64,000 nucleotides of DNA, taken from Trachythela sp. YZ-2020 (taxonomy: Eukaryota > Cnidaria > Anthozoa > Malacalcyonacea > Clavulariidae). The stretch spans positions 248,800-312,799 of the forward strand of contig JADLSH010000013.1 in assembly GCA_016169945.1 (NCBI GenBank). The letters are read 5' to 3'. Made by a program: the position numbers and the translations under genes. Under the pieces are notes generated by a model. The model had not been told where the DNA came from. It worked only from the letters and a program-made list of their open reading frames with translations, and searched no databases. Shown here piece by piece: positions 9,588 through 39,660 of this stretch (within the stretch, counting starts at the first letter, position 1; every line of letters starts with the position of its first letter).

Positions 9588-10229
9588 AATGCTGTTTCAA
9601 CAACTTGTTATCAGAATGTGTTGGCACTGCTTGTTCCTAGCTTGTCACAACTTGCTACAAGGTTGTTGACTCGACAGACTTGCTACAAGTAGTTCCAACA
9701 TCAACAACTTATTATCGTCCTGCAATTCAACAACCTTGTAGCAACTTGATCAAAAATTGCCACAACAGTGTTACGACTTGTTGGCAACCTTGCTACAAAT
9801 CTGTGGCGAACACTTCTTGTTGACAAAATGTGAGATTTGCGTATAACATGTAGATAATGAGTTCCATCTCTAGCATTGGGATTATTTTCACTGCAGTTTG
9901 GCAACGAAGTGAGATCGTTCGCTCGAATATGATATAAAAAACAGTAACTTCATTATTTCAACATTACTTTTATTAATTAATGAAACCACTTACAAGTCTC
10001 GCTCTAAATATTGTTTAAAAGTGCATGATTACGTATGCGTACTTTATGTGCTAATAATGATTCATTGAATTACGATATCCCTGGTGAAATGTGCTAGCCA
10101 CAACGTCTGGGTGCTTTTATTCTAGATCCAGCAATGGTTTGTCATTCGTTGAGCGAGGAGATTCTGTAAAAAGATTATCCCAAATCAATTTTATTCTGAA
10201 GTAAACAAAGTCTTAGTTCATGCTGAATA

Positions 10230-10363
10230 TGCGGTGCCACTGTGGGTAGAGTATAGAAAATACGACCCATTCTTCTACTAACTTTTCCCCGACCCATTCT
10301 ACTAACTTCCAGACGAAGGGCCTTCGCTCGAAACGTCGAAGTTCTCATTGTATTTTACAGGTA
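10230..10363 (+). mobile_element. Short retroelement with a hammerhead-like core and a 16-bp target duplication
   Basis: Sister units read straight through this point. Here the host word tagttcatgctgaata (10214-10229) recurs as tagtttcatactgaata (10364-10380) after the insert, a long duplication typical of target-primed reverse transcription. The insert ends with an arrangement like a hammerhead ribozyme: aacttc pairs with gaagtt, the core is cagacga ... cgaaac-gtc, and an inner stem gggc/gctc lies between. One core position is A instead of U (10312-10351), so it is probably inactive. Likely derived from a Penelope-like element; that is inference. Confidence 0.65.
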
Positions 10364-10855
10364 TAGTTTCATACTGAATAGCTCAATCAGTTTCGTTTCA
10401 ACTGTCCTCCATAGAATCGAGGTCCAGCAAAGGTGATCTGTTTAGGCGTCTAACGAACCTAAACTTATTTAACTTTAGTTATTATACTAGATAGATCTAT
10501 CAGTCCGCACAACTGTTCTCCCAACAGGTTTAGAAAGGGCCAACACTTATTTCTCCAGTGTTATTGCAGAAGGAAACTTAACTAATCTATCTTTATTTAA
10601 CTTGTATAGCTCTATCAGTTCTTAACTGTTCTCCCTAAAAGTTTAGATGTGGTTACATCTTATTGCTTTAGTGTTAAGCCGTGGTCAAATGATAACGCAA
10701 ATCATCGCGAGTTTTAACTCCTGAGGTATGGAAAAGATGGAATGGATAATTTGATCAAGAAACACAAAATGTGAAATACACAAAGTGTCTTGTGAAAAGT
10801 GATTAATGTGATTTGTTTGTAACATGAATATTTTACGCTAAACATGATATGGTTT

Positions 10856-11720
10856 TCAACCTTCATCTCCCGATAAGCGGCGACGAATACACCGACGACC
10901 CCAACATGGGCGGCGACGAACACATCGACGACCCCAACAAGGCCATGGACGACGACGAAAACATCGAAGACCATAACATGGGCGGCGACGAATACATCGA
11001 CGACCCCAACATCGGGGTACTCTTCTATATGGTCCACGCGAGCGTTTGAATATTTCTGGTTCGTCTTCGTCATTTGACGGACTCTCATTTACATTGTCCA
11101 AGGCGTTCTCTCTGAATTGAAAGGAAGAAGATACATGTATTGATAATTTCAAGAACCTTTTACAGTACACGTATAGGCGTAGAATGATGTAGCAAGTTCG
11201 AACCAGTCAATCTAACACAGTCTAACATTGTTTGCCCATCGTTATCCGTATTTTCAAACGAATCAGATCTATATGTCAAGTCGGAAAATAATATGAAACA
11301 TTGCAAGAAAAAAAAACTAGTTTATTGCATAGCGGCACATGTCAAGTACAGGATCACTTTAGAACTAGCCTAGGATTAAGGTCAGCATTAGGATTATGAT
11401 TATGGTTATGATTAAGGATTGAGATTATGGTCAGGAAACTTTAGCGGTTAAAAATCGCCATGTTAAATATAGAAAATTCTGGTAATTGAGGCCTTATACG
11501 AAAGGAAATCTTGAAGACGAGTATATGTCAGTATGAAGAAATGCCCACAATGAAGAAATTACACAGGACAGACTTACAATTGCCCATCGTCTTCGGTGTC
11601 GCTATAGACGTCTTCCAAAGCTTGCTCTCTAAAATCATCTTCGGTTTCTTCTGCGTGTCCAACACCAAGAAACACAGAACAGACTGTAATCAGCAAGGCT
11701 AGAATTGTCCAACACTTCAT
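10856..11720 (-). CDS. Secretory precursor of a Cys/Arg-repeat cationic peptide
   Basis: Exon 1 (11720-11578) encodes a signal peptide, MKCWTILALLITVCSVFLGV, then an acidic run EETEDDFREQALEDVY, ending with TT at a GTAAGT donor (phase 2). Exon 3 (11111-10856) starts after TTCAATTCAG and continues in frame: ENALDNVNESPSNDEDEPEI, then FKR and a 61-residue C-terminal peptide. That peptide has four copies of an 11-residue repeat of the form CWGRRCIRRRP (second copy CYGLRCFRRRP), 8 Cys as four C-x4-C pairs and 23 Arg, with a GDEG end. Only the first half of exon 2 remains (11268-11226) with no usable donor, so exon 1 probably joins exon 3 directly, giving 132 residues. Acidic pro-region, Lys-Arg site and Cys/Arg-rich end fit an antimicrobial peptide precursor acting outside the cell. 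Expression not shown. Confidence 0.75.
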
Positions 11721-11769
11721 CGCGATAGCTGGCGGTCGACTCCTGGTTAGCTTGGCTGTTTTCGCGCGC

Positions 11770-11777
11770 TTTTATGC
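11770..11777 (-). promoter_or_regulatory. Possible TATA-like box of the unit 1 peptide gene
   Basis: On the minus strand cataaaag lies about 50 nt upstream of the ATG at 11720. The 28.5-28.9 kb gene has catataga at the homologous position. Units at 33-38 kb have lost this segment. No experimental support. Confidence 0.35.
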
Positions 11778-11997
11778 GTGAGGTGTTCCAAGGCAAAGGC
11801 TATAAAGGTCTTTTTAGTCAAATCTAATTTGAGCGAACTGTCATCGGGTTTCCGGCTCAGCACTTAAGTTCAAGTGCCTATTAGAGTTCTTAGCTCTCAA
11901 AAATCAAGAGTATTGTTTCGAATTTCTTTCATAACATGTTTTGGCAAAATTTATGAATAAATTGACCTGAATGATATTTTTACATTTGTCATTATAA

Positions 11998-12473
11998 TGG
12001 TAAAATGGTATAACTTTATTTCAGCAGGGTAGCCCATTCAGCACGTGGCTGGTATCTATAGGGGCCCTGCATTCAGTAAGCAAGCTATATCACAAGATTT
12101 AAAATACAATATGCTAAAATGAAATCCCTAATTAAACTATCATAAAATAATTCTACTATAGGTAAAATTATTGAACATGTCCACAATTTATAAAAAGTAG
12201 CAACCTAAGAAATGGGCTCGTACAAGTCTTCTAAAAGACGAAAGTGTCTCTCACCTTTGATGTGAGCGGGTAGCGTGTTGAATAACACTGAGCCCGAATA
12301 TCTGAACGTACGTTTGCCGAGAGTAAGTTTTGGCTTCGGCAGGTGTAGATCAGAACGTCTCCTGGTATTATAGCTATGGAAATTTGAATTTCTAGTAAAA
12401 TAGATCTTTTAAACATTTAAAAGTAAGAATACACTTATGCACCTTACGATTAGTCTCTAAGTCTGTCCAATAA
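11998..12473 (-). mobile_element. LINE 3' fragment inserted in unit 1
   Basis: Absent from sister units, where cattataa is followed directly by gtacgcaaaaacgtcatt. The minus strand encodes a reverse-transcriptase C-terminus (GKRTFRYSGSVLFNTLPAHI, then KGERHFRLLEDLYEPIS and stop), followed by a 3' UTR with an aataaag signal near 12012-12020. Only the 3' end inserted. Confidence 0.75.
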
Positions 12474-14125
12474 TAACTACGCAAAAACGTCATTAGTAAG
12501 GTATAACTCTAAGATCTGTTTATTATTACAAACGAACAATATTTGTAGCAGGAAATCCTCCATGAGAAAGTTGGGTGTCGTCGCTCAAGGATGCTTGGAC
12601 GCACTTCGCGAAGAAAAAAACAAAACAAAGTAATCCACTCCTACAATATTTTTGATCAATACTTCTTTGTATTCATAAACGAGACAGCCAGATCTATACT
12701 CACTAAACTAACTATATTTATACTACTGTAGATAGCTTTGTCAGTTCTAAACTGGTCTCCTTAGAGGTCTTCAAGTTACATCCATCTTCTATTGGTCCAG
12801 TGTTACCGCAGGAGGATCTTTTACCTGAACTCACTTTTTTCGTACTGATTTAATAGCTCTATCAGTACTAAACTGGTCTCCGTAGAGGTCCAATAAAAGC
12901 CAATCCCTTCCAGTGCAACTACAGCACTGAAAACCTAATCTAATGCTGTTTCAACAACTTGTTATCAGGATGTGCCTCGCACTGCATGTTCTTAGCTTGT
13001 TGACAAGTTGTCGACGGCTTATCGACAACTTGCTAATGACAAGGTTGTTGACTCGACATGCAGACTTGCTATAACTTATTATCGTCCGGCAATTCAACAA
13101 CTTGTTACCAAGTTATTACAATGTTAGTGACAACCTTGTAGCAACTTGATAAAGTGACAACAAGCTTGCTACAAGTCTGTGGCGAACACATCTTGTTGAA
13201 AAATTGTGAGATTTGCGTGTAACATGATAATGAGTTCCATCTCTCACATTGGGATTATTTTCACGGCAGTTTGGGAACGATGTGAGATGGTTTGCACGAA
13301 TATGGTATAAATAACAATAACTCTATTATTTCAACATTACTTTTATTTATTAATGAAACCAGTTACAAGTCTCAGTTTATGTGTTTATGTGCTATTAATG
13401 ATGCAAGAAAGACAGGTCGACAAAAATATTGTTTGAAAGTGCCAAGTGCATGATTACGTAAGCGTAATTTATCTGCTAATAATGAATCATTGAATTACGA
13501 TATGCCAGGTGAAATGTGCTGGCCATTACGTTTGGGTGCTTTTATTCTCGACCCAGCCATGGTTTGTCATTTCACGGCGCAGCTTGCTTGTCTTTCTTCA
13601 AACGAGGAGATTCTGTGAGCGAAATTGAGTGTCCTAAATCATTTCAATTCTCAACTAAACAATAAGATATTTACTATATAGTATACACTAAATAGCCCAA
13701 ACAGCTGCGTAGACTAGAGGTCCAGGAATGGTGATTCTTTATTGTTCTAGTGTTACCACAAGACTTCTAGTGAACCGAAACTAATCTAACTGTATTTAGT
13801 ACTTGATAGGCTCTATCAGTTCGAAACTGTTCTCCCAACAGGTTTAGAATGGGCCAACACCTATTTCTCCAGTGTTATTGCAGAAGGAAACTTAACTAAT
13901 TTAACTTTATTCAACACGAATAGCTCTATCAGTTCTTAACTGCTCTCCCTAAAAGGTTTAGATGAGGTTATCTCTTATTGCTCTAGTGTTAAACGAGAGC
14001 GTAAAACCACCAGCAGGTTTTAACTCCTGAGGTATGGAAAAGAGGGAATTAATAATTTGATAAAGAAACACAGAATGTGAAATACACAAAGTGTTATATG
14101 TGATTTGTTTGTAATACTCAGTTAA

Positions 14126-14741
14126 GGTGGCTCCCTACAATTTTTGAAATATGGTAAATTTATGATTTAGATTGAATTTTTTTGAAGAACGTTTACTTGT
14201 TAGAAAACAAAAATTGTCCCTCATGTATTGAGCAACATTCTAAAAGTCTGAAATTGTTCACAACAATGACGTCATTACGGTTTCTATGGTAACAATGACG
14301 TTTCAATATGGCTGACATTTGAGCTTTTAGCATACTTTACTCGAAAAAACGCCTGGTTATCCCCATTTTTTATTTCATAAAACATTTTCATCTAGTACAG
14401 TAGATTATTTGAACAAGCTTAAAAAGATTCTGTAGAGCCAAATTTAAAAAAAATTAATAAACATGAGTTTTCGTTATAAATATTTTTTGGCTCCACATAA
14501 TTTTTTTAAACTCGTTCAGATAATCTATTTATCTACAGGAAAACGTTTCATCAAGCCAAAATGTCGGCCATATTGAAACGTCATTGTTACCATAGCGACG
14601 GAAATGGCGTCATTTTTGGGAACAATTTCCAGCTCTTAGAATATTGCTCAATATGAGTCACACCATTTTTGTTTTGTAACAAGTAAGAATTATTCAAAAA
14701 GTTTAATCTAAACCGTAATCAAAAAATTGTAGGGAGCCACC
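14126..14741. mobile_element. 616-bp palindromic MITE with TTAA target duplication, copy 1
   Basis: Ends are ggtggctccctacaattttt and its inverse aaaaattgtagggagccacc; inverted similarity continues inward for about 300 bp per arm. TTAA flanks both sides (14122-14125, 14742-14745). Units at 27.56, 32.46 and 36.53 kb have the uninterrupted site with one TTAA. TTAA targeting fits piggyBac-like or Kolobok transposases; none is encoded here. Confidence 0.9.
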
Positions 14742-15933
14742 TTAAACATGAATAATTTTACGCTTTATATCATTGAATCTTGTCACAATTTGTGCTGTTC
14801 AAACCACTCATCCCCTGTTTTCCATCTCTCAGAAGTTTACCCTTGCGATGACTTGCGGTTTGTTTGATCTGGGCTTTAGTAATGTGATACAAAAAATAAG
14901 GTTTTCAATCTTCGTCTCCAAAGTGACGTTAAACAAGGCATTTGTGACATAGAATGCAAAAAATGAAAGCAAAACACCAGCGATTAGAAAATAGAGATAT
15001 TATGCATCTGTCACAAGAATAGCTAGTTATCAAATCAAAAACTGCTTATCTCTATTATGAAATTCGTGTTTTTTAAGATACCTAGATTTAGTAATATGAA
15101 GACATGGATCAGGTTGTACCAGGGCACTTAATATAGTGGGAGGTAATCTCCTTGGGTTTCCGGCTTAGCACTTCGATCAGTTCAAGTGTATTAGAGTTTG
15201 TTAACCCTCAAAAGTCAAGAGTATCGTTTCGAATTTCTTTCATAACATGTTTTGGCAAAATTTATGAATAAATTGACCAGAATGATATTTTTACATTAGT
15301 CATTATAAGTACGCAAAAACGTCATTAGTAAGGTATAACTCTAAGATCTGTTTATTATTACAAACGAACAATATTTGTAACAGGAAATCCTCCGCGAGAA
15401 AGTTGTGTGTCGTCGCTCAAGGGTGCTTGGACGCACTTCGCGAAGAGAGAAACAAAACAAACTAATCCACTCTTACAATATTTTTGATCAAATTTAATAC
15501 TTCTTTGTATTCATAAACGAGACAGCCAGATCTATACTCACTAAAGTATTCTCGACCCAGCCAGCTTTGTGGCGATTCGTTGAACGAGCATATTCTGTAA
15601 AAAGATTATCCCAAATCATTTTTATTCTCAAGTAAACTAAGTCTTAGTTCATACTGAATAGCTCAATCAGTTGTATTTAAACTGTTCTAGCTCCATAGAC
15701 TCGAGGTCCAGGAAAGGTGACCTGTTTAGGCGACTAGCGAACCTAAACTAATTTAACTTCATTTATTATACTATAGATAGATCTATCAGTTCGTATAACT
15801 GTTCTCCCAACAGGTTTAGAAAGGGCCAACACTTATTTCTCCAGTGTTATTGCAGAAGGAAACTTAACTATAATATAATCTAAATTTATTTAACTTGAAT
15901 AGCTCTATCAGTTCTTAACTGCCCTAAAGGTTT

Positions 15934-16373
15934 GAATGAATGAATGAATGAATGAATGAACAACTTTATTTAAAGAGGGTAAAAATAACACATGACAGCA
16001 ATACAGCTGAAAAACCTGTGGCCCTCGTACAATATATACAATTAAAGTTACAGATTATACCTACTTTAAAACGATAAAGCTATTTAGAAAGAGAACAATA
16101 GAAGAGATCTTAGGATTACATATATACATATCTACAATTTACTGAAGCTTTACTGGTCACATTAACTGTTCAAATCGATCAATACCCTTATATGAGTCCA
16201 GGAAGTGGTTTTTAAGGGCAAACTTAAAAGAAGTAACGTTAGATTTTGTCTTGATCTCTTTGGGTAGATTGTTCCATATCTTAATGCTATATACTGACTG
16301 TTACAGATTTCCCTCCTTTAGTTACATAATTAAATTTAGGAAAACTAAATTGTATTATTATTATTTATTTTTT
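15934..16373 (-). mobile_element. LINE 3' fragment with a TTCA-repeat tail, copy 1
   Basis: The minus strand encodes a reverse-transcriptase C-terminus: NLPKEIKTKSNVTSFKFALK then NHFLDSYKGIDRFEQLM and stop near 16157. The 3' end is a (TTCA)n tail, seen on the plus strand as gaatgaatgaatgaatgaa. Inserted in the unit between ccctaaaggttt and atgtggtaac. Block B has the same insertion. Confidence 0.85.
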
Positions 16374-16799
16374 ATGTGGTAACATCTTATTGCTCTAGTG
16401 TTAAGCTGTGGTCAAATGATAACGCAAATCATCGCAAGTTTTAATATATAAGTTTTATATAGGTGTGCATGAAAAATAATATATATTATTTATTATAGGT
16501 GTGCATGACAAGAGGGAATTAATAATTTTAAACACAGAATGTGAAATACACAAAGTGTCATGTAAAATGGGATTAATGTGATTTGTTTGTAATATACAGC
16601 TAAACATGAATATTGTACGCTGTACTATTTATAACAAAGTTGACTCGTTTCTACAATTTGTGTTGTTCAGGCAAACCACTCATTCATTAGTTTCCATCTC
16701 TCAGACGTTTAAACTTGCGACGACTTGCATCTCGTTTGATCCGGTTTTTTTTAGTAATGTAGTAAGAAAAGGTAAAAATATGGTTTTCAACCTTGAGGG

Positions 16800-16851
16800 G
16801 TGATCTTCGTCATTTGACGGACTCTCATTTACACTCTCCAAGGCGTTCTCT
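16800..16851 (-). pseudogene. Exon-3 relic of the peptide gene, block A
   Basis: After the TTTCATTTCAG acceptor it reads ENALESVNESPSNDED, then jumps to unrelated sequence. The Lys-Arg site and the cationic part are deleted. Exons 1 and 2 are absent: the sequence goes from the intron-side flank at about 16940 to the region upstream of exon 1. Confidence 0.75.
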
Positions 16852-17324
16852 CTGAAATGAAAGAATGAAGATACATGTATTGATAAGTTTATACTGAGTT
16901 AATTTCAAGAACCTTTTACAGTAGACGTAGCTAGAATGATGTTGAGGGCCGGAACTGTCATTTTTTTGAAATGCAAAACTCCTTGGGTTTCCGTACTAGA
17001 CAGAGTGTACTAGAGTTCTTAGCCCTCAAAAGTCAAGAGTATTGTTTCGAATTTCTTTCATAATATTTTTTGGCAAAATTTATGAATAAATTGACCTGAG
17101 TGATATTTTTACATTTTTCATCATAAGGTATAACTCTAAGATCTGTTTATTATTACGAACGAACAATATTTGTAGCAGGAAATCCTCCATAAGAAAGTGG
17201 GTGCCGTCGCTCAAGGGTGCTTGGACGCATTTCGCGAAGAGAAAAACAAAACAAACTAATCCACTCTTACAATATTTTTGTATTCATATTAAAACGAGAC
17301 AGCCAGATCTGTACTCACTGAACT

Positions 17325-17510
17325 GAAGGTACGTTGCTGCGATTTGTCGGACCGATCGTTTTAGGTTTCTCTGAATGTTAATGACGAATATTTTCAGTTG
17401 GTGATGTTGGCTGATGACGTTTGCCCACTGCGTTTGCCACGTATTTTTCAAATATCATTAACGCGCATCTGAAATCGGCCCGACAAATCGCAGCGTGTAA
17501 ACGTACCTTC
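17325..17510. mobile_element. MITE with long terminal inverted repeats, copy 1
   Basis: Right end cgcagcgtgtaaacgtacc mirrors the left gaaggtacgttgctgcgatt, which has lost about 8 bp relative to the copy at 23504. The inner TIR word is tgtcggaccgat against atcggcccgaca. No coding capacity. Confidence 0.85.
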
Positions 17511-17728
17511 ACTATATTTATACTAGATATCTTTATCACTTCTCAACTGGTCTTCTTAGAGGTCTTCAAGTAGGAGGATCTTTACCGTACTTTTTCGTAC
17601 TGATTTAATAGCTCTATATCTGTACTAAACTGGTCTCATAGAGGTCCAATAAAAGCCAATCCCTTCCAGTGCAACTACAGCACTGAGAACCTAATCTAAT
17701 GTTGTTTCAACAACGTGTTATCAGGATG

Positions 17729-19042
17729 CGGGGGCGTAAATGTGGGGGGGGAGGGTGGTACACCCCCCAGAGATCATGATCCAGTCGGTCTCAAGAAATT
17801 CATTGTTAAATTGGACGCATTATGCCACGTAATGCTATGCGAGACTGGCTAAATAGTTTCGGAGACTGACTTCAATCGTTGCATTAATTAAAATATAAAG
17901 TTTGCCGAATATCCTGTTACAATCTTTCAATCTAGAATGTCATATCACGCATACTGTATCTGGCGTGCGTATGTTGAATATTTACAGAAGCACTAAAGGA
18001 CTGTAAATGCTAAAACAAACTACTTTGAAGTTTGAAATAGAACCATAATATTGCCAGTTGCCTGTTGCCACAACTGCTACAATCTACATATTAAATACTT
18101 TATGGCAAACTTATTGTACAGGAAGCTAAACTTATTCTTATCCGGAAAAACTACATTGTTTTTGTGATATAATTCGAATTTTTTTACTGATTTCCACCTA
18201 CAAATTGGAATAAAATATTTGTTCAGAACGCAGGAAATCGTGTCTACGAGGTCCTAGATTTAAAAATTTCCCGGAGGAGGATTCCCCCGGACCCCTGCGA
18301 ATGGGTGTCTTACTGCATCAGTCGCCCTACTCTGCTGGATCTGCCCCTGTGTACATGAGTTCAGTAAAAAATATGAAACGTAACTTACGTAAGTTGAATT
18401 GTGCGGCTACTCATGCGCAAGTTATTGCATTCTATTGTATTATAAGAATAGGTAATAGACAATTACTAACAAAGCGCGGACGCTTGATAAATATATGACT
18501 ATATTGATTAAATTTAATAATTCATTAATTCATACCAGCGAACATATGAAAGACAAGCTGTCTTGATCAGTTTCCACTCAAAATTTTCACTATGATACTA
18601 GCGACTGCTGTCAGTGCTAAAACTCTTAGCCAATTAGGTACTAAAATAATTAGGGACAGGATTCACAGACTTGAGTGGTGTCGATTGAGTTGTGTACGTA
18701 ATCTCTAAAAACTGAAAGCAGTATGACATGAACTCTCATGCGCAGTACTCAATGTAACTGAAAGTCAGAGAACAATTTTCTGCTCAATTACCAATTAGTG
18801 TAATAAGATACAATTAGATATAAAAACTTTTTTTCTTGGACAAGGTCAGTACTCATTAGTATGTGTGTACATATTTTGTTTATTGAATTGCGTTGCCATT
18901 AAACTTATTGGAGCAGCATACGTAAATTTTCAATTGACTTTTCGATTTAGAAGTTGGGGCGGGGGGGAGAGGTGGTTCTGAATTTATGAGTCGGTCTCGT
19001 TTCGAATCTTCACCACCCAGCCAAAATAGATATACGCCACTG
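17729..19042. mobile_element. hAT-like non-autonomous element X, copy 1
   Basis: Flanked by the 8-bp direct repeat tcaggatg (17721-17728 and 19043-19050), which occurs once in units without the insertion. Termini cgggggcgtaaat and atatacgccactg form a short inverted repeat. An 8-bp duplication and this TIR type fit hAT transposons. Inside are only short frames and no recognisable transposase. Confidence 0.8.
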
Positions 19043-20150
19043 TCAGGATGTGCCGGGTCGCACCGCTTGTTCTTAGTTGACGGCTTATCGAGAACTTGCT
19101 ACAAGGTTGTTGACTCGACATGCAGATTTGCTATATAACTTATTATCGTCAGGCAATTCAACAACTTGTTACCAAGTTGTTACACTGATGTTAGTGACAA
19201 CCTTGTAGCAACTTGATAAAATGACAACAAGCTTGCTACAAGTCTGTGGCGAACACATCTTGTTGACAAATTGTGAGATTTGCGTGTAACATAGATAATG
19301 ATCACGAGTTCCTTCTCTAACATTGGGATTATTTTCACTGCAGTTTGGGAACGAAGTGAGATGGTTTGCACGAATATGGTATAAATAACAATAATTCTAT
19401 TATTTCAACATTACTTTTATTTATTAATGAAACAAGTTACAAGTATCAGTTTATGTGTTTATGTGCTATTAATGACGCAAGAAAGACAAAAATATTGTTT
19501 GAAAGTGCCAAGTGCATGATTACGTAAGCGTACTTTATGTGCTAATTCATTGAATTACAATATGCCTGCTTTTAATTATTCTCGACCCAGCCATGGTTTG
19601 TAATTTCACGGTGCAGCTTGCTTGTCTTTCTTCAAACGAGGAGATTCTGTGAACAAAATTGAGTGTCCTAAATCATTTCAATTCTCAACTAAACAATAAG
19701 ATATATAGTATACTAAATAGCCCAAACAGCTGCGTAGACTAGAGGTCCAGGAATAGTCATTCTTTATTGTTCTAGTGTTACCACAAGACTTCTAGTGAAC
19801 CGAAACTAATCTAACTGTATTTAGTACTAGATAGGCTCTATCAGTTCGAAACTGTTCTCCCAACAGGTTTAGAAAGGGCCAATACCTATTTCTCCGGTGT
19901 TACTGCAGAAGGAAACTTAACTAATCTAACTTTATTCAACACGAATAGCTCTATCAGTTATTAACTGTTCTCCCTAAAAGGTTTAGATTAGGTTATTTCT
20001 TATTGCTCTAGTGTTAATCGAGAGCGTAAAACCACCGGCAGGTTTTAACTCCTGAGGTATGGAAAAGAGGGAATTAATAATTTGATAAAGAAACACAGAA
20101 TGTGAAATACACAAAGTGTTATATGTGATTTGTTTGTAATACACAGTTAA

Positions 20151-20766
20151 GGTGGCTCCCTACAATTTTTGAAATAGGGTTAGTTTATGATTTAGATTGA
20201 ACTTTTTTGAAGAACGTTTACTTGTTAGAAAACAAAAATTGTCCCTCATGTATTGAGCAACATTCTAAAAGTCTGAAATTGTTCACAACAATGACGTCAT
20301 TACGGTTTCTATGGAAACAATGACGTTTCAATATGGCCGACATTTTAGCTTTTAGCATACTTTACTCGAAAAAACGCCTGGTTATCCCCATTTTTTATTT
20401 CATAAAATATTTTCATCTAGTACGGTAGATTATTTGAACAAGCTTAAAAAGATTCTGTAGAACCAAATTGAAAAAAAATTAATAAACATGAGTTTTCGTT
20501 ATAAATATTTTTTGGCTCCACAGAATTTTTTTAAACTCGTTCAGATAATCTATTTATCTACAGGAAAACGTTTCATCAAGCCAAAATGTCGGCCATATTG
20601 AAACGTCATTGTTACCATAGCAACGGAAATGGCGCCATTTTTGGGAACAATTTCCAGCTCTTAGAATATTGCTCAATATGAGTCACACCATTTTTGTTTT
20701 GTAACAAGTAAGAATTATTCAAAAAGTTTCATCTAAACCGTAATCAAAAAAATGTAGGGAGCCAAC
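20151..20766. mobile_element. TTAA-flanked palindromic MITE, copy 2
   Basis: Same element and site as 14126-14741, with TTAA at 20147-20150 and 20767-20770. The copies differ by scattered substitutions. Confidence 0.9.
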
Positions 20767-21583
20767 TTAAACATGAATTTTTACGCTTTAAAACATTGAC
20801 TCTTGTCACAATTTGTGTTGTTCAAACCACTCATCCCCTGTTTTCCATCTCTCAGAAGTTTACCCTTGCGATGACTTGCGGTTTGTTTGATCTGGGCTTT
20901 AGTAATGTGATACAAAAACATAAGGTTTTCAATCTTATCGTTAAACAAGGCATTTGTAACATAGAATGCAAAAAATGAAATCAAAACACCAGCGATTAGA
21001 AAATAGAGATATTATGCATCTGTCACAAGAATAGCTAGTTATCAAATCAAAAACTGCTCATCTCTATTATAAAATTCGTATTTTTTAAGATACCTATATT
21101 TAGTAATATGAAGACATGGATCAGGCTGTACCAGGGCACTTAATATAGTGGGAGGTAATCTCCTTGGGTTTCCGGCTTAGCACTTCGATCAGTTCAAGTG
21201 TATTGGATTTTTTAACCCTCAAAAGTCAAGAGTATCGTTTCGAATTTCTTTCATAACATGTTTTGGCAAAATTTATGAATAAATTGACCAGAATGATATT
21301 TTTACATTAGTCATTATAAGTACGTAAAAACGTCATTAGTAAGGTATAACTCTAAGATCTGTTTATTATTACAAACGAACAATATTTGTAACAGGAAATC
21401 CTCCACAAGAAAGTTGGGTGCCGTCGCTCAAGGGTGCTTGGACGCACTTCGCGAAGAGAGAAACAAAACAAACTAATCCACTCCTACAATATTTTTGATC
21501 AAGTTTAATACTTCTTTGTATTCATAAACGAGACAGCCAGACCTATACTCACTAAAGTATTCTCGACCCAGCCAGCTTTGTGG

Positions 21584-22924: not shown

Positions 22925-23009
22925 TCAACCTTCATCTCCCGGTCGTGGGATTGGGGGGTGATCTTCTTCATTTGACGGACTCTCATTTACACTCTCCAAG
23001 GCGTTCTCT
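22925..23009 (-). pseudogene. Exon-3 relic of the peptide gene, block B
   Basis: Reads ENALESVNESPSNEED and then HPPIPRPGDEG and a stop. The GDEG end and following bases match the unit 1 gene, so a deletion removed the Lys-Arg site and the whole Cys/Arg repeat but kept both edges in frame. No exon 1 or 2 remains upstream. Confidence 0.8.
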
Positions 23010-28466: not shown

Positions 28467-28878
28467 CTATCCACGGTTACGTCGGAAACGTTGGAAAAAC
28501 CTGCGGTAATGCAGCCGAGGCACGTGAATGCGAGCTGCCCAACGGCGACCTGGGTAACTGGGATGTAGAAAACGGGTACGTCTCGGTCCCCATGGTGCAC
28601 GTTTGAACATGGCTGGTTCATCTTCGTCATTTGATGGATTCTCATTTACACTGTCCAAGGCGTTCTCTCTGAGTTTGAAGAAATGAAAGAGGATATATAT
28701 TGATAAGCGAGGGGCAAATTGAATGATAAAATATACAAATGGCTTACAAGTCTTCGTCGTTCAATGCATCTTTCAAAGCAGATTCTCTAAAATCATCTTG
28801 GGTTTCTTCTGTATGTCCAACACCAAGAAACACACCACAGACTGCAATCAGCAAGGCTAGAATTGTCCAACACTTCAT
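28467..28878 (-). CDS. Secretory precursor of a 43-residue Arg-rich peptide, two-exon form
   Basis: Exon 1 (28878-28748) encodes MKCWTILALLIAVCGVFLGV and an acidic stretch to NDED, with a GTAAGC donor in phase 2. Exon 3 (28668-28467) encodes ENALDSVNENPSNDEDEP, then AMFKR and 43 residues beginning APWGPRRTRFLHPSYPGRRW, with 13 Arg, 3 His and no acidic residue. Only about 80 bp separate the exons, so the acidic middle exon is missing; both introns are phase 2 and the reading frame survives, giving 110 residues. The usual acceptor has mutated from CAG to CAA, but an AG six bases on keeps frame. It probably yields a secreted antimicrobial-type peptide after cleavage at Lys-Arg. Whether so short an intron is spliced is unproven. 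Confidence 0.68.
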
Positions 28879-29062
28879 CGCGATGGCTGACTCGATTCTA
28901 TATGTGTGAGCTGTCCCAAGACAAAGGCTACAGTATAAAGGTATTTTTATTCAAATTTTATTTGAGGGAACTGTACGTCATTGGGTTTCCGTCTCAGCAC
29001 GTCAGTTCAAGTGTACAAGAGTACGCAAAAACGTCATTAGTAAGGTATAACTCTAAGATCTG

Positions 29063-30385: not shown

Positions 30386-30857
30386 CTAAGATCTGTTTAT
30401 TATTACAAACGAACAATATTTGTAACAGGAAATCCCCTGTGAGAAAGTTGTGTGTCGTCGCTCAAGGATGCTTCGCGAAGAGAAAAACAAACAAACTAGT
30501 ACACTCCTACAATATATATTTTTGATCAAGTTTAATATTTCTTTGTATTCATAAACGAGATAGCCAGATCTGTACTCACTAAACTAACTATATTTATACT
30601 ACTGTAGATAAAATGGATGCTGATTTATTTACTTTCAAAAATGAAATGACAAATTATGAACTTCGAGATTTTGAAAGTACTCTTTGCTTACCACAGCCAT
30701 GCACGTACTAATAGCATGAAGGATCTTTGGAACTCTTTACGAAATGAAATTAGGGAGAGCAACTCCCTCATGTCTTTTGAAACGAAAATCACTATACTCA
30801 CATTTTTGAATACCTTATATTCTTGTACCTATATAACTTTCTTAGTATTATGTTTCT

Positions 30858-31276
30858 TCTGAGTATTGTACCACATGCGCTTGGTGAGGGCAAGAGTATG
30901 GTGTATAAATACGAAGTCACTCGCATCTAGACTGCGTTACAAGCCGCACTGACGAGCCGTTGAACGGCGAAACATGCATGTCTGCAGATTTGACTATATA
31001 ATTATGCTCCTTCACTTGTGTTGTTGAGCACTCTGTGAGGTTAATTGGTGGCTATAAGCTATAATGCAAAAGCTCACTTCCCTTGTGGTCGTTTGAGCAC
31101 TCTGGCCCCAAGACACTTCACGCATGTCTGGATGCGCATGTGTCTGAGTATTGTACCACATGCGCTTGGTGAGGGCAAGAGGTATGGTGTATAAATACGA
31201 AGTCACTCGCATCTAGACTGCGTTACAAGCTGCACTGACGAGCCGTTGAACGGCGAAACATGCATGTCTGCAGACT
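30858..31276 (+). mobile_element. Tandem dimer of a ~286-bp hammerhead-bearing retroelement unit
   Basis: tgagtattgtaccacatgcg through the ribozyme core is present at 30859-30995 and again at 31145-31276. The second copy stops after the ribozyme. Tandem copies with hammerheads 286 bp apart match the organisation of Penelope-like element pseudo-LTRs and of retrozymes. No protein is encoded. Confidence 0.72.
30936..30993 (+). ncRNA. Type I hammerhead ribozyme motif, copy 1
   Basis: Core ctgacga (30949-30955), stem II gccg/cggc with loop ttgaa, then gaaa (30969-30972), a tiny stem III (ca/tg around tgca) and the cleavage triplet gtc (30980-30982). Stem I pairs aagccgca with tgcagattt, with one mismatch and a bulged a. 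Minimal stem III is typical of Penelope-like and retrozyme hammerheads, which often cleave as dimers. Confidence 0.75.
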
Positions 31277-31279
31277 TGA
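31222..31279 (+). ncRNA. Type I hammerhead ribozyme motif, copy 2 (best formed)
   Basis: Same core as copy 1: ctgacga at 31235-31241, gaaa at 31254-31257, gtc at 31266-31268. Stem I pairs aagctgca with tgcagactt over 8 bp with a single bulged a, better than copy 1. All core positions I can check are canonical. Confidence 0.8.
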
Positions 31280-33055
31280 CTAACTTTCTTACTATATACT
31301 GATTACTATCTATACTATATTTTTGTAATCTTATTATCGTACATGTCCCTTGCGGAAATCAGCCTATAGGTTGACAATGGTTAGCGTGTTTAAATAAAGT
31401 CTATCTATCTTCTAACCTAATCTAATGCTGTTTCAACAACTTTTTATCAGGATGCATGTGTCGGGTCGCACTGCTTGTTCTCAGCTTGTTGACAAGTTGT
31501 CGACGGCTTATCGACAACTTGCTACAAGGTTGTTGACTCGACAGACTTGCTACAAGTTGTTCCAACACCAACAACTTATTATCGTCAATAACGTTTTACC
31601 AAGTTGTTACAATGTTACATTGTTACAACTTGTTGACAAGCTTGCTACAAGTCTGTGGCGAACACATCTTGTTGACAAATTGTGAGATTTGGGTGTAGCA
31701 TGTAAATAATGAGTTCCATCTCTAACATTGGGATTATTTTTACTGCAGTTTGCCGGGAACGAAGTGAGATCGTTGGCATGAATATGGTATATAAATAACA
31801 ATTAACAATAACTCTATTATTTCAACATTACTTTTATTTATTCATGAAACCAGTTACAAGTCTCAGTTTATGTGTTTATGTGCTATTAATGATGCAAGAA
31901 AGACAAAAATATTGTTTGAAAGTGCCAAGTGCATGATTACGTAAGCGTAATTTATGTAGTGCTAATAATGAATCATTGAATTACGATATGCCAGGTGAAA
32001 TGCCTGGCCATTACGTTTGGGTGCTTTTATTCTTGACCCAGCCATGGTTTGTCATTTCACGGTGCAGCTTGCTTGTCTTTCTTCAAACGAGGATATTCTG
32101 TGAACAAAATTGAGTGTCCTAAATCATTTCAATTCTCAATTAAACAATAAGATATATAGTATAATTATACTAAATAGCTCAATCAGCTGCGTAGACTAGA
32201 GGTCCAGGAATGGTGATTCTTTCATATTGTTCTAGTGAACCGAAACTAATCCAACTGTATTTATAGTAGATAGGCTCTATCAGTTCTTAACCTTTCTCCC
32301 TAAAAGGTTTAGATGAGGTTATCTCTTATTGCTCCAGTGTTAAACGAGAGCGCAAAAACACCAAGTTTTAACTCCTGGGGCATGGAAGAGGAATGAATAA
32401 TTTGATAAAGAAACGCAGAATGTGAAAAACACAAAGTGTTTTATGTGATTTGTTTGTAATACACAGTTAAACATGAATATTTTACGCTTTAAAACATTGA
32501 CTCTTAATTGTCACAATTTGTGTTGTTCAAACCCTTTTTTCCATCTCTCAGAAGTTTACCCTTGCGATGACTTGCGGCCTGTTTGATCAAAAATGGTTTT
32601 CAACCTTCGTCTCCAAAGTGACGCTAAACAATGCATTTGTAACATAGAATGCAAAAAATGAAATCAAAACACCAGCAATTAGAAAATAGAGATATTATGC
32701 ATCTCTCACAAGAATAGCTAGTTATCAAATCGAAAACTGCTTATCTCTGTTATGAAATTCGTGTTTTTTAAGATACCGAGATTTAGTAATTAATATAGTG
32801 GGCGGTAATCTCCTTGTCAACTTTAGCCGAAAAGCACGCTCGTGCCAGTCCTCTTCCACATCACACATGGATCAGCGGGACATGAGCGAGTTACCGCCCA
32901 CCACTTAATAGCGGCGTGGTGGTTTGTACGAAGGCTGGAAAGCGCCACAGGAAAGTTCTAAAGTGATTTTTCAAACTTTCTAAAATTCGTTATTGTAAAT
33001 AGGTATACTGTACCGGGCATTTTTAGAAAAGTTGAAAAAATGACGTCTATCCATG

Positions 33056-34957
33056 CTAACGGATACGACGGACGCGACCAGGGAAAAGGCGACCTGGGTA
33101 ACGTGGAAAACGGAAACGTCCCAACGGTGCTCGTTTGAACATGGCTGGTTCATCTTCGTCATTTGATGGATTCTCATGTACACTGTCCAAGGCGTTCTCT
33201 CGGAGTCTGAAGAATGAAGATATATATTGATAAATCTAGTTAATTTCAAAAACCTTTTACAGTGGATGTAGGTGTAGAATGATGTAGCATATTACCGAGA
33301 GAAATATGTTTTGGTGTGTTGTGTTGTGTTGTGCTGTGCTGTGCTGTGCTGTGCTGTGCTGTGCTGTGCTGTGCTGTGCTGTGCTGTGCTGTGCTGTGCT
33401 GTGCTGTGTTATGTTATGGTATGATATGATATGGTATGGTGTGGCGCGGCATGGCATGGCATGGCATGGCATGGCATGGCAAGGTATGGTATGGTATGGT
33501 ATGGTATGGTATGGTATGGTATGGTATGGTATGGTATGGTATGGTATGGTATGGTATGGTATGGTATGGTATGGTATGGTATGGTATGGTATGGTATGGT
33601 ATGGTATGGTATGGTATGGTATGGTATGGTATGGTATGGTATGGTATGGTATGGTATGGTATGGTATGGTATGGTATGGTATGGTATGGTATGGTATGGT
33701 ATGGTATGGTATGGTATGGTATGGTATGGTATGGTATGGTATGGCGTGGCATGGCATGGAAGGTATAGTGTGGTGTGGCATGACATGGCAAGGAATGGTA
33801 TGGTGTGGTGTGGTATTGTATGGTATGGTATGGTATGGTATGTTTCAGCATGGTTTCAAACTAGTGTGGAATGATGTGGCGTGGAATGATTTGGTGTGGT
33901 ATGGTAATGTATATGGTTTTGCGTGCTATTATATTATACAATATGATTCAGTTTGACACACAAGCACTTTACTTCACTTACGTTTCAACTAAAGAATTGG
34001 GATCAGACTCTTCGTCATCATCATCGTCATCGTTTTCAGTATTTTCAAACGAATCAGATCTAAAGAGTGTATAAAAAATAAGGGAATCGATGTTTTATGG
34101 TTTGATAATTTTTAGAATACTAGTCCTTATAAAAGGATTTTAGTATTACTTTAAAGCCAGGGGTCGTAATTGAATTTTTTTTGTGCTATACAGCCGGAAT
34201 AGTAGCTTTGAAATTTACTATTCAATCGGAAGATCCACTATTCCTTAATGTACTGTTTCTGAGAGCCTGTTCATCCAGGGTCAGCGCTAATGTTCTGATT
34301 TTCGTGACTAAACGCTAAAGTTGTTTTAGACAGACTAGTTGCGCTAGTCTGTCTGTCTGTCATGTGACAAAGTTAATTAAGTTATTGCTGCAAATTAGAA
34401 TACAAGTTGGAACAGTGGCTCAAAGTCCGGTATAAAGTGATATATTATACAAGAGGAAAACCTTTGCTTGTCGATATTTGGTACCACAATTGTTTCTACT
34501 ATACAAACGGAATACCGTGATCATGAAGTTTACTATTCCGTCAACCATTTTACTATATTCGGAATAGCGTGAATTTCGACCCCTGCAAGCTTGTTGTTTT
34601 CTCTTTCGAACAAGGGATCATTTGTGTCTTAGTGTAGGTAATAACTGCACAAGAGAACCTATTTAGTAGAACCCATCATTTTTAATTTAGACGCCGTTTA
34701 ATGGCCATAAAAATGAAATATAATGAATAATTAGACTATCCTTAACTGAGAATAAAAATTAATATTTTTCAAAAGAAGTAATAGCCAGTGGTAATATTGA
34801 ATGAATAAAATATACAAATGGCTTACAAGTCTTCGTCGTTCAATGCATCTTCCAAAGCTGATTCGCTAAAATCATCTTCGGTTTCTTCAGTGTGTCCAAC
34901 ACAAAGAAACACAGCACAGACTGCAATCAGCAAGGCTAGAATTGTCCAACACTTCAT
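33056..34957 (-). CDS. Secretory precursor of a 24-residue Arg-rich peptide, three-exon form
   Basis: Exon 1 (34957-34827): MKCWTILALLIAVCAVFLCV, then acidic EETEDDFSESALEDALNDED. Exon 2 (34059-33982, 78 nt): SDSFENTENDDDDDDEESD and on to LVET, with TAG/GTAAGT borders. Exon 3 (33206-33056): LRENALDSVHENPSNDEDEP, AMFKR, then APLGRFRFPRYPGR and ten more residues ending RVRRIR, stop. The last 24 residues hold 8 Arg and no acidic residue. All junctions are phase 2 and splice in frame to 119 residues. It probably enters the secretory pathway and is cut at Lys-Arg; the acidic pro-part would neutralise the cationic end. Intron 2 holds a 500-bp pentanucleotide array and intron 1 a transposon. Antimicrobial role is inferred from architecture. 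Confidence 0.78.
33310..33850. repeat. Pentanucleotide arrays in intron 2 of the unit 5 gene
   Basis: Three successive arrays: gtgct repeats (about 33335-33405), atggc repeats (33447-33482) and a long, nearly perfect atggt array (33485-33745), then a degenerate tail. The open frames over it are consequences of a 5-bp repeat without stops and are not genes. Confidence 0.95.
34158..34585. mobile_element. 428-bp element with CAGGGGTCG ends, private to unit 5
   Basis: Unit 6 reads actttaaagcttgttg without a break. Here 428 bp are inserted, with inverted ends caggggtcgtaattgaa and gaatttcgacccctg. Such ends are seen in hAT-type MITEs, but a clean 8-bp duplication is not visible. No protein. Lies in intron 1 of the unit 5 gene. 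Confidence 0.75.
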
Positions 34958-36906
34958 CGCGACGGCTGGCGGTCGACTCCTTCTGGTTATCATGAATTTG
35001 ATTTGAGGGGAACCGTTTGTCATTGAGTTTCCGGCTCAGCACGCAAAAACGTCATTAGTAAGGTATAACTCTAAGATCTGTTTATTATTACGAACGAACA
35101 ATATTTGTAACAGGAAATCCTCTATAAGAAAGTTGGACGTACTTCGTGAAGGGAAAAACAAAACAAACTAATCCACTCGACTAGAATATTTTTGATCAAG
35201 TTTAATACTTCTGAGCTTTGTATTCATAAACGCCGAGATAGCCAGATCTATACTCACCAAACTAACTATATTTATACTAGACAGCTTTGTCAGTTCTAAA
35301 CCGGTCTCCTTAGTCCAGTGTTACTGCAGGAGGATCTTGTACCTAAACTCACTTTTTTCGTGATGATTTAATAGCTCTATCAGAAATAAACTGGTCTCCG
35401 TATAGAGGTCCAGTAAGAGCCAATCCCTTCCAGTCCAACTAGAGCACTGACAACCTAATCTAATGTTGTTTCAACAACTTGTTATCAGGATGTGCCGAGT
35501 CGCACTGCTTGTTCTCAGCTTACTGATCAGTTGTCGACAAGGTTGTTGACTCGACAGGCTTGCTACAAGTTGTTCCAACACCAACAACTTATTATCGTCC
35601 TGCAATTCAATAACTTGTTACCAAGTTGTTACAAGGTTAGTGACAACCTTGTAGCAACTTCATAAAATGACAACATTGTTACAACTTGTTGAAAAGCTTG
35701 CTACAAGTCTGTTGCGAACACATCTTGGCGACAAAATGTCACATTTGGGTGCAGCATGTAAATAATGAGTTCCATCTCTAACATTGGGATTATTTTCACT
35801 GCAGTTTGGGAACGAAATGAGATCGTTTTCACGAATATGGTATAAATAACAATAACTCTATTATTTCAACATTACTTTTATTTATTCATGAAACCAGTTA
35901 CAAGTCTCAGTTTATGTGTTTATGTGCTATTAATAATGCAAGAAAGACAGGTCGACAAAAATATTGTTTGAAAGTGCCAAGTGCATGATTACGTAAGCGT
36001 AATTTATGTGCTAATAATGATTCATTGAATTACGATATGCCAGGTGAAATGTTCTGGCCATTACGTTTGTGTGCTTTTATTCTCGACCCAGCCATGGTTT
36101 GTCATTTCACGGTGCAGCTTGCTTGTCTTTCTTCAAACGAGGAGATTCTGTGAGCGAAATTGAGTGTCCTAAATCATTTCAATTCTCAACTAAACAATAA
36201 GATATATAGTATATACAAAATAGCTCAATCAGCTGCGTAGACTATAGAGGTAGTTAGAGGTCCAGGAATGGTGATTCTTCAGTATCGTTCTAGTGAACCG
36301 AAACTAATCTAACTGTATTTATACTAGATAGGCTCTATCAGTTCTTAACTGTTCTCCATAAAAGGTTTAGATGAGGTTATTTCTTATTGCTCCAGTGTTA
36401 AACGAGAGCGCAAAACCACCGCAAGTTTTAACTCCTGAGGTATGGAAAAGAAGGAATGAATAATTTGATAAAGAAACGCAGAATGTGAAATACACAAAGT
36501 GTTTTATGTGATTTATTTGTATACATAGTTAAACATTAATATTTTACGCTTTAAAACATTGACTTTTGTCACAATTTATGTTGTTCAAACCACTCATCCT
36601 CTATTTCCATCTCTCAGAAGTTTACACTTGCGATGACTTCCGTCTCGTTTGATCTGCATGGGCTTCACTATTGTGACACAAAAATAAGGTTTTCAACCTT
36701 CGTCTCCAAAGTGACGTTAAACAAGGCATTTGTAACATAGAATGCAAAAAATGAAATCAAAACACGAGCAATTAGAAAGTAGAGATATTATGCATCTGTC
36801 ACAAGAATAGCTAGTTATCAAAACGAAAAGTGATTTTTCAAACTTTCTAAAATCGTTGTTGTAAATAGGTATACTGTACCGGGCATTTGTAGAAAAGTTT
36901 AAAAAA

Positions 36907-38157
36907 TCACTGGTAACGGACACGACGGACGCGAGCTGGGAAAGTGCGACCTGGGTAACTGGGAAAACGGAAACGAAGACGTCCCAATGGTGCACGTTTG
37001 AACATGGCTGGTTCATCTTCGTCATTTGATGGATTCTCATTTACACTGTCCAAGGTGTTCTCTCTGAGTCTGAAGAATGAAGATATTTTAAGCCTAGTTA
37101 ATTTCAAAAACCTTTTACAGTGGATGCAGGTGTAGAATGATGTAACATATTAGTACATTACCGATAAAAAATATGGTTTGGTATGTTATGGTATGATATG
37201 TTTTGCAGTATGGCATAATATATGTACAACTAGTATTGTTCATGGTATGGTATGGTATGGTATGGTATGGTATGGTATGGTATGGTATGGTATGGTATGG
37301 TATGGTATGGTATGGTATGGTATGGTATGGTATGGTATGGTATGGTATGGTATGGTATGGTATGATATGATATGGTATGGTATGGTATGGTATGGTATGG
37401 TATGGTATGGTATGGTATGGTATGGTATGGTATGGTATGGTATGGTATGGTATGGTATGGTATGGTATGGTATGGTATGGTATGGTATGGTATGGTATTG
37501 TATGGTATGGTATGGTATTCTTCAGCGTGGTTTCAGACTAGTGTGGAATGACTGATGTGGTGTGGTATGGTAATGTATATGGTTTTGTGTGCTATTATAT
37601 TATATTATATATGATTCAGTTTGGCAGACAAACACTTTGCTTCACTTACGTTTCAACTAAAGAATTTAGATCAGACTCTTCGTCATCATCATCGTCATCG
37701 TTTTCAGTATTTTCAAGCGAATCAGATCTAAAGAGTGTATCGATTTTTTATGCTTGATAAATTTTAGAATACTATTGTCCTTATAAAAGGATTTTAGTCT
37801 TACTTTAAAGCTTGTTGTTTTCTCTTTCGAACAAGGGGTCATTTGTGTCTTAGTGTAGGTAGTAACTGCACAAGAGAACCTATTTAGTAGAACGCATCAT
37901 TTTTAATTTAGACGCCGTTATAATGAATAATTAGACTATCTTTAACTGAGAATAAAAATTAATATTTTTCAAAAGAAGTAATAGCCAGTGGTAATATTGA
38001 ATGAATAAAGTATACAAATGGCTTACAAGTCTTCGTCGTTCAATGCATCTTTCAAAGCTGATTCTCTAAAATCATCTTCGGTTTCTTCTGTGTGTCCAAC
38101 ACCAAGAAACACAGCACAGACTGCAATCAGCAAGCCTAGAATTGTCCAACACTTCAT
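36907..38157 (-). CDS. Secretory precursor of a 28-residue Arg-rich peptide, three-exon form
   Basis: Exon 1 (38157-38027): MKCWTILGLLIAVCAVFLGV plus acidic EETEDDFRESALKDALNDED. Exon 2 (37727-37650, 78 nt): acidic, SDSLENTENDDDDDDEESD. Exon 3 (37069-36907): LRENTLDSVNENPSNDEDEP, AMFKR, then a 28-residue end APLGRLRFRFPSYPGR through RVRRVRYQ with 8 Arg and no acidic residue. Donors GTAAGC and GTAAGT and acceptors TTTAG and TTCAG are intact, all phase 2, giving 123 residues. Compared with unit 5 the pro-region is nearly unchanged while the mature end differs, as expected for a diversifying defence peptide. Cleavage at Lys-Arg and an antimicrobial role are inferred. Confidence 0.8.
37242..37515. 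repeat. Pentanucleotide array in intron 2 of the unit 6 gene
   Basis: Nearly perfect atggt repeat over about 270 bp with a brief tatgatatgat interruption near 37362. Shorter than the unit 5 array and lacking the gtgct and atggc blocks. Confidence 0.95.
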
Positions 38158-38670
38158 CGCGATGGCTGACCGTCGACTCATTCTGGTTATCATGAAAGGT
38201 CTTTTTATTCAAATTTGATTTGAGGGGAACTGTACGTCATTGGGTTTCCGGCTCTGCTTATTATTACAGACGAACAATATTTGTAACAGGAAATCCTCTA
38301 TGAGAAAGTTGGACGCACTTCGCGAGGGGAAAAACAAAACAAACTAATCAACTCGCCCACACGGTCTACAATATTTTTGATCAAGTTTAATACTTCTTTG
38401 TATTCATAAACGAGACAACCAGATCTACTGTATACTCACCAAACTAACTATATTTATACTAGATAGCTTTGTCAGTTCTAAACTGGTCTCCTTAGAGGTC
38501 TTCAAGTAAGATCGATCTTCTATTGGTCCAGTGTTACTGCAGGAGGATCTTTTACCTAAACTCACTTTTTACGTACTGATTTAATAGCTCTATCAGTACT
38601 AAACTGGTCTCCGTAGAGGTCCAGTAAGAGCCTATCCCTTCCAGTCCAACTACAGCACTGAAAATATAAT

Positions 38671-39660
38671 CTAATGCTGTTTCAACAATTTGTTATCAGG
38701 CTGTGCCGAGTCGCACTGCTTGTGCTCAGCTTATACTGATCAGTTGTCGACAAGGTTGTTGACTCGACAGGCTTGCTACAAGATGTTCCAAAACCAATTA
38801 TTATCGTCCTGCAAATTCAACAACTTGTTGTCAAGTTGTTACAATGTTAGTGACAACCTTGTAGCAACTTGATAAAATGACAACCTTGTAGCAACTTGAT
38901 AAAATGACAACATTGTTAATTTGTTACAACTTGTTGACAAGCTTGCTACAAGTCTGTGGCGAACACTTCTTGTTGACAAAATGCGACATTTGGGTGTAGC
39001 ATATAAATAAGGAGTTCCATCTCTATTAACATTGGGATTATTTTCACTCCAGTTTGGGAACGAAGTGAGATCGTTTCCACGAATATGGTATAACATTACT
39101 TTTATTTATTAATGAAACCAGTTAAAAGTTTATGTGCCATTAATGATGCAAGAAAGACAGGTCGACAAAAATATTGTTTGAAAGTGCCAAGTGCATGATT
39201 ACGTAAGCGTACTTTATGTCCTAATAATGATTCATTGAATTATACGATATACCAGGTAAAATGTGCTGGCCATCACGTTTGGGTACTTTTATTCTCGACC
39301 GTGTGGCATGCCTTGCCTTGCCATGCCATGTGGGATGATTTGGTGTGGTATGGATTAGTATATGGTTTTGCGTGCTATTATATTATAATCCAACCTGAGA
39401 ATTAAATTTAATATTTTTTAAAATAAGTAGCTAATAGCCAGGGATAATATGGAATGAATAAAATACAAATAGCTACAAAGTCTTCTTCGTTGTCTTTCGA
39501 AGCCTATTCTCTAAAATCATCTTCGGTTTCTTTTGTGTGTCCAACATCACATAGCACAGACTGCAATCAGCAAGGCTAGAATTGTCCAACACTTCATCGT
39601 GATGGCTGTTTCGATTCTCTCTGGTTATGCGTAAACCGTACGTGCGCCTATAAAAGTGCG
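38671..39660. repeat. Array unit 7, truncated end of the array
   Basis: Normal unit start, but at about 39300 attctcgacc joins gtgtggcatgccttgcc, a remnant of the intron-2 pentamer array. Exons 3 and 2 have therefore been deleted. The array ends soon after the exon-1 relic. Confidence 0.8.
39478..39597 (-). pseudogene. Exon-1 relic of the peptide gene
   Basis: Starts intact (MKCWTILALLIAVCA from 39597) but a 9-bp replacement-type change brings in TGA two codons later. The downstream acidic part is shifted and the donor has changed from GTAAGC to GTAGCT. No exon 2 or 3 follows. Confidence 0.85.

Follow-up and report, generated by a model that had tools for sequence, protein, structure and literature searches.

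Constant leaders and diverse arginine-rich payloads in a large family of putative antimicrobial prepropeptides, probably restricted to octocorals, in Trachythela

Four neighbouring genes in the octocoral Trachythela sp. YZ-2020 belong to a large family, probably confined to octocorals, that we consider likely to encode secreted host-defence (antimicrobial) prepropeptides with diversified payloads. The DNA that we analysed, hereafter the window, is 64,000 nucleotides (nt) long and corresponds to C122:248800-312799 in a 578-Mb, 396-contig assembly (C-numbers name contigs). Gene structure, paralogy, charge pattern and payload variability are established for the family. Across its members the leader and pro-region are nearly fixed while the payload is diverse, and the window is one of many family clusters; the original prediction made from this DNA had seen neither feature.

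Exon reading of the window yielded four intact precursor genes, A-D, all on the minus strand. As had been predicted, in each gene a signal exon (MKCWTILALL...) leads into an acidic pro-region, then an F-K-R site and an Arg-rich C-terminus; introns are phase-2, and the pro-region string (S/N)PSNDEDEP is common to all four. Exon 1 encodes the signal peptide and, after it, an acidic stretch (consensus MKCWTILALLI.VC.VFLGVGH.EET.DDF...) and ends at a TT|GTAAGY donor. The last exon opens at an AG|A acceptor and runs through ENALDSVNE.PSNDEDEP, or a near variant, to F-K-R, the basic payload and the stop. Against a first-exon profile, genes A, B, C and D have E-values of 8.0e-31, 9.7e-31, 7.2e-29 and 5.1e-31, respectively, values that are not independent because the profile was partly seeded with family members. 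A symmetric 78-nt acidic exon 2 (phase 2-2) is present in C and D, persists as a relic in A and is missing from B, which has a single intron of 79 nt; the predicted exon orders, 1-2-3 or 1-3, are thus both represented.

Gene A (132 amino acids, aa) begins with an exon at 11578..11720 that encodes the signal peptide and acidic pro-region (MKCWTILALLITVCSVFLGVGHAEETEDDF...DDGQ) and has the phase-2 donor TT|GTAAGT. Its exon-2 relic (11215..11268, end approximate) retains the acceptor and first codons without a matching donor, and its exon 3 (10856..11111) carries the end of the pro-region, FKR, a payload with 8 Cys in four Cys-Arg units (CWGRRCIRRRPC...) built on a 33-nt tandem unit repeated 3.9 times, and the stop. 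Gene B (110 aa) consists of exon 1 at 28748..28878 and exon 3 at 28467..28668, the latter with the end of the pro-region, FKR and a 43-aa Arg-rich payload with an NRG end. Gene C (119 aa) has exon 1 at 34827..34957, the acidic phase 2-2 exon 2 (SDSFENTENDDDDDDEESDPNSLVE) at 33982..34059, and exon 3 at 33056..33206, where the end of the pro-region and FKR precede a 24-aa R/F/P payload. Gene D (121 aa) has the same layout, with exon 1 at 38027..38157, its acidic phase 2-2 exon 2 at 37650..37727, and exon 3 at 36907..37063, which encodes the end of the pro-region, FKR and a 28-aa R/F/P payload and has an alternative acceptor 6 nt upstream. Long TATGG pentamer arrays occupy 33.3-33.8 kb and 37.2-37.5 kb of the window, between exons 2 and 3 of C and D. 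The coding exons of A-D cover 10856-38157, and the originally predicted span of 9588..39660 was too wide. What lies at 39.6 kb is a first exon with a broken frame.

Our search of the assembly showed that the array runs on beyond the window edges. A gene B query gave 105 exon matches, and a first-exon query gave 71 matches on 22 contigs, haplotype or duplicate copies included; 69 of these 71 lack an internal stop. Thirty-two of the first-exon matches lie within the stretches read for models (~297 kb of fetched sequence, overlaps included) and the other 39 lie outside them. From 29 gene starts tried we obtained 24 spliced models, and C122_235k and C86_791k, joined from exon readouts, bring the set to 26 precursor models. 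One of these, A_hap2, is the counterpart of gene A on C231. Three loci were left out: C86_758k (no first-exon donor found), C231_614k (last-exon frame broken) and C231_205k (a near copy of C122_235k). The C365 payload entered the charge analysis as 82 aa; with 401 more bases the full payload is 101 aa. The claim of consistent exon junctions extends well beyond the window, as a phase-2 donor, mostly TT|GTAAG, is found in 28/29 first exons from the window and elsewhere (none in the remaining one), and exon structure and phase are unchanged over the 24 spliced models. Identity of C231 to the window is 99.5% across 12.7 kb and 97.3% beyond that, but C231 is without one ~6.0-kb tandem unit (window ~14554-20578) that holds an orphan last exon, so copy number differs between the two haplotypes or duplicate contigs. 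C86 carries a third, more diverged copy of the region.

The boundary between constant and variable sequence falls at the F-K-R site, which is present in 26/26 models. Mean pairwise identity drops from 0.78 in the ten residues that precede KR to 0.40 in the ten that follow it; over residues 1-22 it is 0.88. Pro-region charge ranges from -9 to -28, and payload charge from +5 to +39 with 26-52% Arg. In pooled payload DNA from 21 copies, R+K make up 38.5% of the gene frame and 3.1% and 6.1% of the other two. Across 12 pairs, which are not independent, the pooled ratio of nonsynonymous to synonymous change per site (pN/pS) is 0.18 for the exon-3 pro part and 0.83 for the payload. Gene B and its C86 copy differ at 8 nonsynonymous and 0 synonymous positions in the payload and at none in the pro part. 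The payload is less similar than the pro part in 18/21 pairs, the exceptions being A/C86_768k, C30_4280k/C334 and one tie at 100%; these 21 pairs share history, and their figures describe a pattern without amounting to a formal test for positive selection. The payload is also less similar than the 250 nt past the stop in 12/21 pairs, and in 6 of the 9 remaining pairs the sequence downstream of the stop scarcely aligns (40-60%). Two pairs show this clearly. In the B/C pair, identity is 68% in the payload, 95% in the pro part, 93% downstream and 43% upstream, where the introns differ. The C122_235k/C30_4329k payloads are 88% identical with 93 gap columns, between flanks that are 98% (upstream) and 97% (downstream) identical.

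A single payload of 19-111 aa follows one common KR in the 26 models, and the payloads fall into six classes. The first, Cys-Arg repeats with 6-8 Cys, comprises A, its C231 and C86 counterparts, C30_4311k and C189. The second is made of Pro-Arg repeats: C354 has an IPRPRWPR payload (24-nt unit, 7.7 copies; end FRFGK) of 33% Pro and 36% Arg, the Pro-Arg repeat composition of proline-rich antimicrobial peptides (AMPs), and the 101-aa payload of C365 repeats RFRVP from a 15-nt unit and ends in RGGWGR. Poly-Arg precedes an amphipathic segment with one Cys in the third class (C251, C30_4304k) and a one- or two-Cys tail in the fourth (C30_4263k, C30_4280k, C30_4290k, C334). Shorter R/F/P/W peptides make up the fifth: B, C, D, C30_4314k, C30_4317k, C30_4320k, C376, C312 and two R/T-rich members on C181. 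The sixth has RRPSS or RRRSS with TTSP tails (C122_235k, C86_791k, C30_4329k). Payload types resemble known AMP classes, namely amphipathic, Pro-Arg, Arg-Phe and Cys-Arg peptides and, in P. clavata, a His-rich one. Six segments were chosen by eye, four of them in relatives described below and two in this genome; 0, 8, 3, 145, 7 and 151 of 10000 shuffles reached their helical moments (100 degrees).

On the usual route of AMP precursors, a signal peptide directs secretion, an acidic pro-part masks the basic peptide, and a convertase cuts after KR to free the cationic product. Our precursors have the general layout for this route: a signal peptide recognised by eye, an acidic pro-region with a dibasic site, and a cationic C-terminal peptide. 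Reading function from this layout, we propose that the conserved signal peptide would direct the product into the secretory pathway, where the conserved Asp/Glu-rich pro-region would mask the basic payload; the skippable acidic exon may reinforce masking in some genes. A furin/kexin-type convertase would then cleave after F-K-R. A C-terminal G, GK or GR permits amidation, and payloads end in this way in 16/26 models. By analogy with known AMPs, the freed cationic peptide, in many cases putatively amidated, may bind and damage microbes. Substitution, tandem-repeat expansion and gene duplication would diversify the payload as the leader and pro-region stay fixed, and the outcome would be many different peptides in one animal. 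A TATA-like box (CATAAAA or TATAAA) lies 55-63 nt ahead of the ATG in 14/20 genes, including A.

To find relatives outside this genome, we searched 5.8 billion proteins twice by profile; matching requires shared five-residue words, and the second search scored the best 8000 candidates. These searches gave 23 and 10 matches, and all those with an organism label (5/23 and 4/10) are from the gorgonian octocoral Paramuricea clavata, where they are annotated as hypothetical only. Taken on their own, these relatives make an octocoral the most likely host of the window. Mitochondrial MutS, considered as an octocoral marker, was uninformative, as all 9 PF00488 matches lie past 0.68 Mb on their contigs and are therefore nuclear. 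With a search that depends on five-residue words, the lack of matches in other named cnidarians says little. The relatives add further payloads: P0003 has WPRRRRV repeats and the end LGK, P0005 (P. clavata) is His-rich, and in P0002 a poly-Arg segment gives way to a Lys-rich, Cys-containing part. Two ENA proteins, P0001 (705-nt contig) and P0004 (1040-nt contig), carry exons 1-2-3 uninterrupted, whereas exons 1 and 3 lie at least 746 nt apart in the three-exon models of this genome. This suggests that P0001 and P0004 derive from spliced transcripts.

No curated Pfam or NCBIfam family accounts for the precursors tested. Genes A and B matched 0 Pfam families at E<=0.1, and 10 further members or relatives gave only sub-cut-off Pfam matches and one match to Cornifin; cathelin was not matched by any of the 12. 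Apart from Cornifin, the NCBIfam and Pfam matches on members and relatives were under curated cut-offs and mostly covered the signal and acidic stretch. The Cornifin match (SPRR, PF02389; 39.4 bits, cut-off 34.8) covers residues 96-161 of the C354 precursor, that is, only the Pro-Arg repeat, and we take it as compositional. Matches to solved structures were likewise set aside as chance or composition: the best for gene A was an unrelated protein (E=0.49), a helical payload matched ribosomal uS17 (E=0.056), and the Pro-Arg payload had one unrelated match among PDB chains of at least 20 residues (E=4). Six family sequence strings occurred in 0 papers of an open-licence literature collection, and the accessible part of PMC7467007 does not contain the word 'antimicrobial'. 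As relatives are named from one octocoral only, no curated family applies and the strings occur in no paper, the family appears to be undescribed as far as open-licence literature searches reach, and would belong to no named family. In silico mining of cnidarian proteins for AMPs, as reported in the accessible part of PMC11820242, drew 16 of 152 candidates from Octocorallia, and that set may include members of the present family. The original label, under which these are precursors of antimicrobial type from a lineage-specific family not described before, fits best and is partly supported: the one-octocoral relatives and the lack of a curated family speak for its second half, and its antimicrobial half is proposed by analogy.

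Several observations weigh against an antimicrobial role. Some family copies are broken, in the window and elsewhere. Some payloads, namely those of the RRPSS/TTSP type and the repeat arrays of 72 and 101 aa, exceed usual AMPs in length or look more like mucins. In 3/21 pairs the payload equals or surpasses the pro part in conservation, and with pooled payload pN/pS below 1 positive selection is not demonstrated. Pro-region and payload charge are uncorrelated (rho -0.04, n=26), which means that masking is not adjusted to the individual gene, and we dropped the idea of charge matching. B, C and D are without a CATAAAA/TATAAA box under a strict pattern, and some may be weakly expressed. A kappaB-like site was found within 400 nt upstream in 0/20 genes; this is uninformative, because less than one site is expected among 20 genes (66/2000 random stretches were positive).

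An improbable alternative, though the best placed of those we weighed, is that the genes encode venom or allelochemical peptides, with cytolytic or cell-penetrating payloads that are loaded into nematocysts or mucus and aimed at prey or competitors instead of microbes. Toxin families also have a fixed leader, a fast-changing payload and clustered genes, which is the pattern seen here. However, most payloads are without a disulphide framework (0 or 1 Cys in 16/26 models), and payloads of the Pro-Arg or His-rich kind make poor cytolysins. Anthozoans do use toxins and chemical defence, according to the accessible part of PMC12250223.

Somewhat less probable again are biomineral or matrix peptides, polycations that would organise sclerites, mucus or extracellular matrix. 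Octocorals make sclerites, and both the extended, regular Arg repeats (RFRVP, IPRPRWPR) and the RRPSS/TTSP tails have a structural appearance, but one structural role is hard to square with the diversity of payloads. In the accessible main text of an octocoral skeletal-proteome paper (PMC11959691), a term search for 'arginine', 'cationic' and 'basic protein' found none of them.

It is quite unlikely that the family consists mostly of decaying duplicates with little function, their diversity reflecting relaxed constraint. Broken and orphan copies do exist. The window holds two orphan last exons, neither with KR or a first exon, at 16780..16851 (end approximate; minus strand) and at 22925..23009 (minus strand), the second of which has no payload and ends in EEDHPPIPRPGDEG and a stop; a first-exon copy at 39460..39597 (end approximate; minus strand) loses its frame beyond MKCWTILALLIAVCAM. 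Payload pN/pS, at 0.83, would also suit decay. Yet constraint on the pro part, which shares that exon with the payload, is strong (0.18), nearly all first-exon matches are free of internal stops, all 26 payloads retain their high Arg content, and relatives persist in P. clavata. Peptide signalling (neuropeptide) precursors are the least likely of all: they would explain the signal peptide, the dibasic site and the frequent G/GK/GR ends, but here one long payload follows one KR in place of a series of short, identical peptides separated by cleavage sites, variability is strong and the payloads have no common C-terminal motif.

Antimicrobial precursors of comparable design are known from other animals. 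The cathelicidins of vertebrates combine a conserved pre-pro part with a cleaved cationic C-terminal payload whose class varies (helical, Pro-Arg, Cys, Trp-rich). Like them, the present family has a conserved pre-pro part with payloads of differing class; unlike them, it has no cathelin match, an acidic low-complexity pro-region and KR cleavage, and it occurs in a different phylum. Frog dermaseptin/brevinin-type precursors form a multigene family in which a near-constant signal and acidic propiece lead to KR and a variable cationic peptide. Our family is similar by layout alone, but it is far more Arg-rich and has a skippable acidic middle exon and repeat-built payloads.

Within cnidarians, the arminins and periculins of Hydra are clustered, bipartite in charge and described as strictly confined to Hydra (PMC10945409, accessible part), and arminins have a C-terminal glycine (PMC12013895, accessible part). 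The original prediction had invoked arminins for the principle only, and that comparison is sound: the present genes are likewise clustered cnidarian paralogues with a signal, an acidic N-part and a basic C-part, arminins being set against them by description alone. Hydra periculin paralogues code for remarkably similar peptides, again in the accessible part of PMC10945409, whereas the present payloads differ strongly between paralogues. No Hydra-named protein was among the 23 and 10 matches of the five-residue-word searches, the second covering the best 8000 candidates. In the sea fan Gorgonia ventalina, also an octocoral, arenicin-2-like and royalisin-like transcripts respond to parasite exposure, one going up and one down (PMC3722494, accessible part); they are AMP-like, were named by similarity only, and are compared here by description alone. 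In the accessible parts of the sources, octocoral antimicrobial peptides have been named by similarity (PMC12250223, PMC3722494) or predicted in silico (PMC11820242).

The window has other features. An open frame at 44809-45540 (+) contains a LicD domain (PF04991, E=8.9e-16), and the best of 10 database matches is 75% identical. A ~285-bp unit is present in six tandem copies at 1220-2939. The open frames 1-546, 6345-6992 and 47277-50251 resemble, by eye, reverse-transcriptase fragments of non-LTR (long terminal repeat) retrotransposons, which we presume them to be; frame 1-546 matched no Pfam family, and frame 6345-6992 matched ALKBH8_N only, just under the cut-off.

Tentatively, and as a possibility that we would not yet favour, octocorals may have independently evolved a cathelicidin-like armoury, in which one leader/pro cassette would deliver payloads of almost every AMP class, the Pro-Arg ones perhaps acting on the bacterial ribosome. 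Turnover by in-frame repeat expansion and haplotype copy-number change could then give colony-specific sets that shape the microbiome. If the family is what we propose, a single animal would yield candidate peptides by the dozen, spread over several classes, and studies of disease in Paramuricea clavata and other gorgonians would gain candidate markers. The family would also offer an invertebrate parallel to cathelicidins for understanding how a constant precursor tolerates changing payloads.

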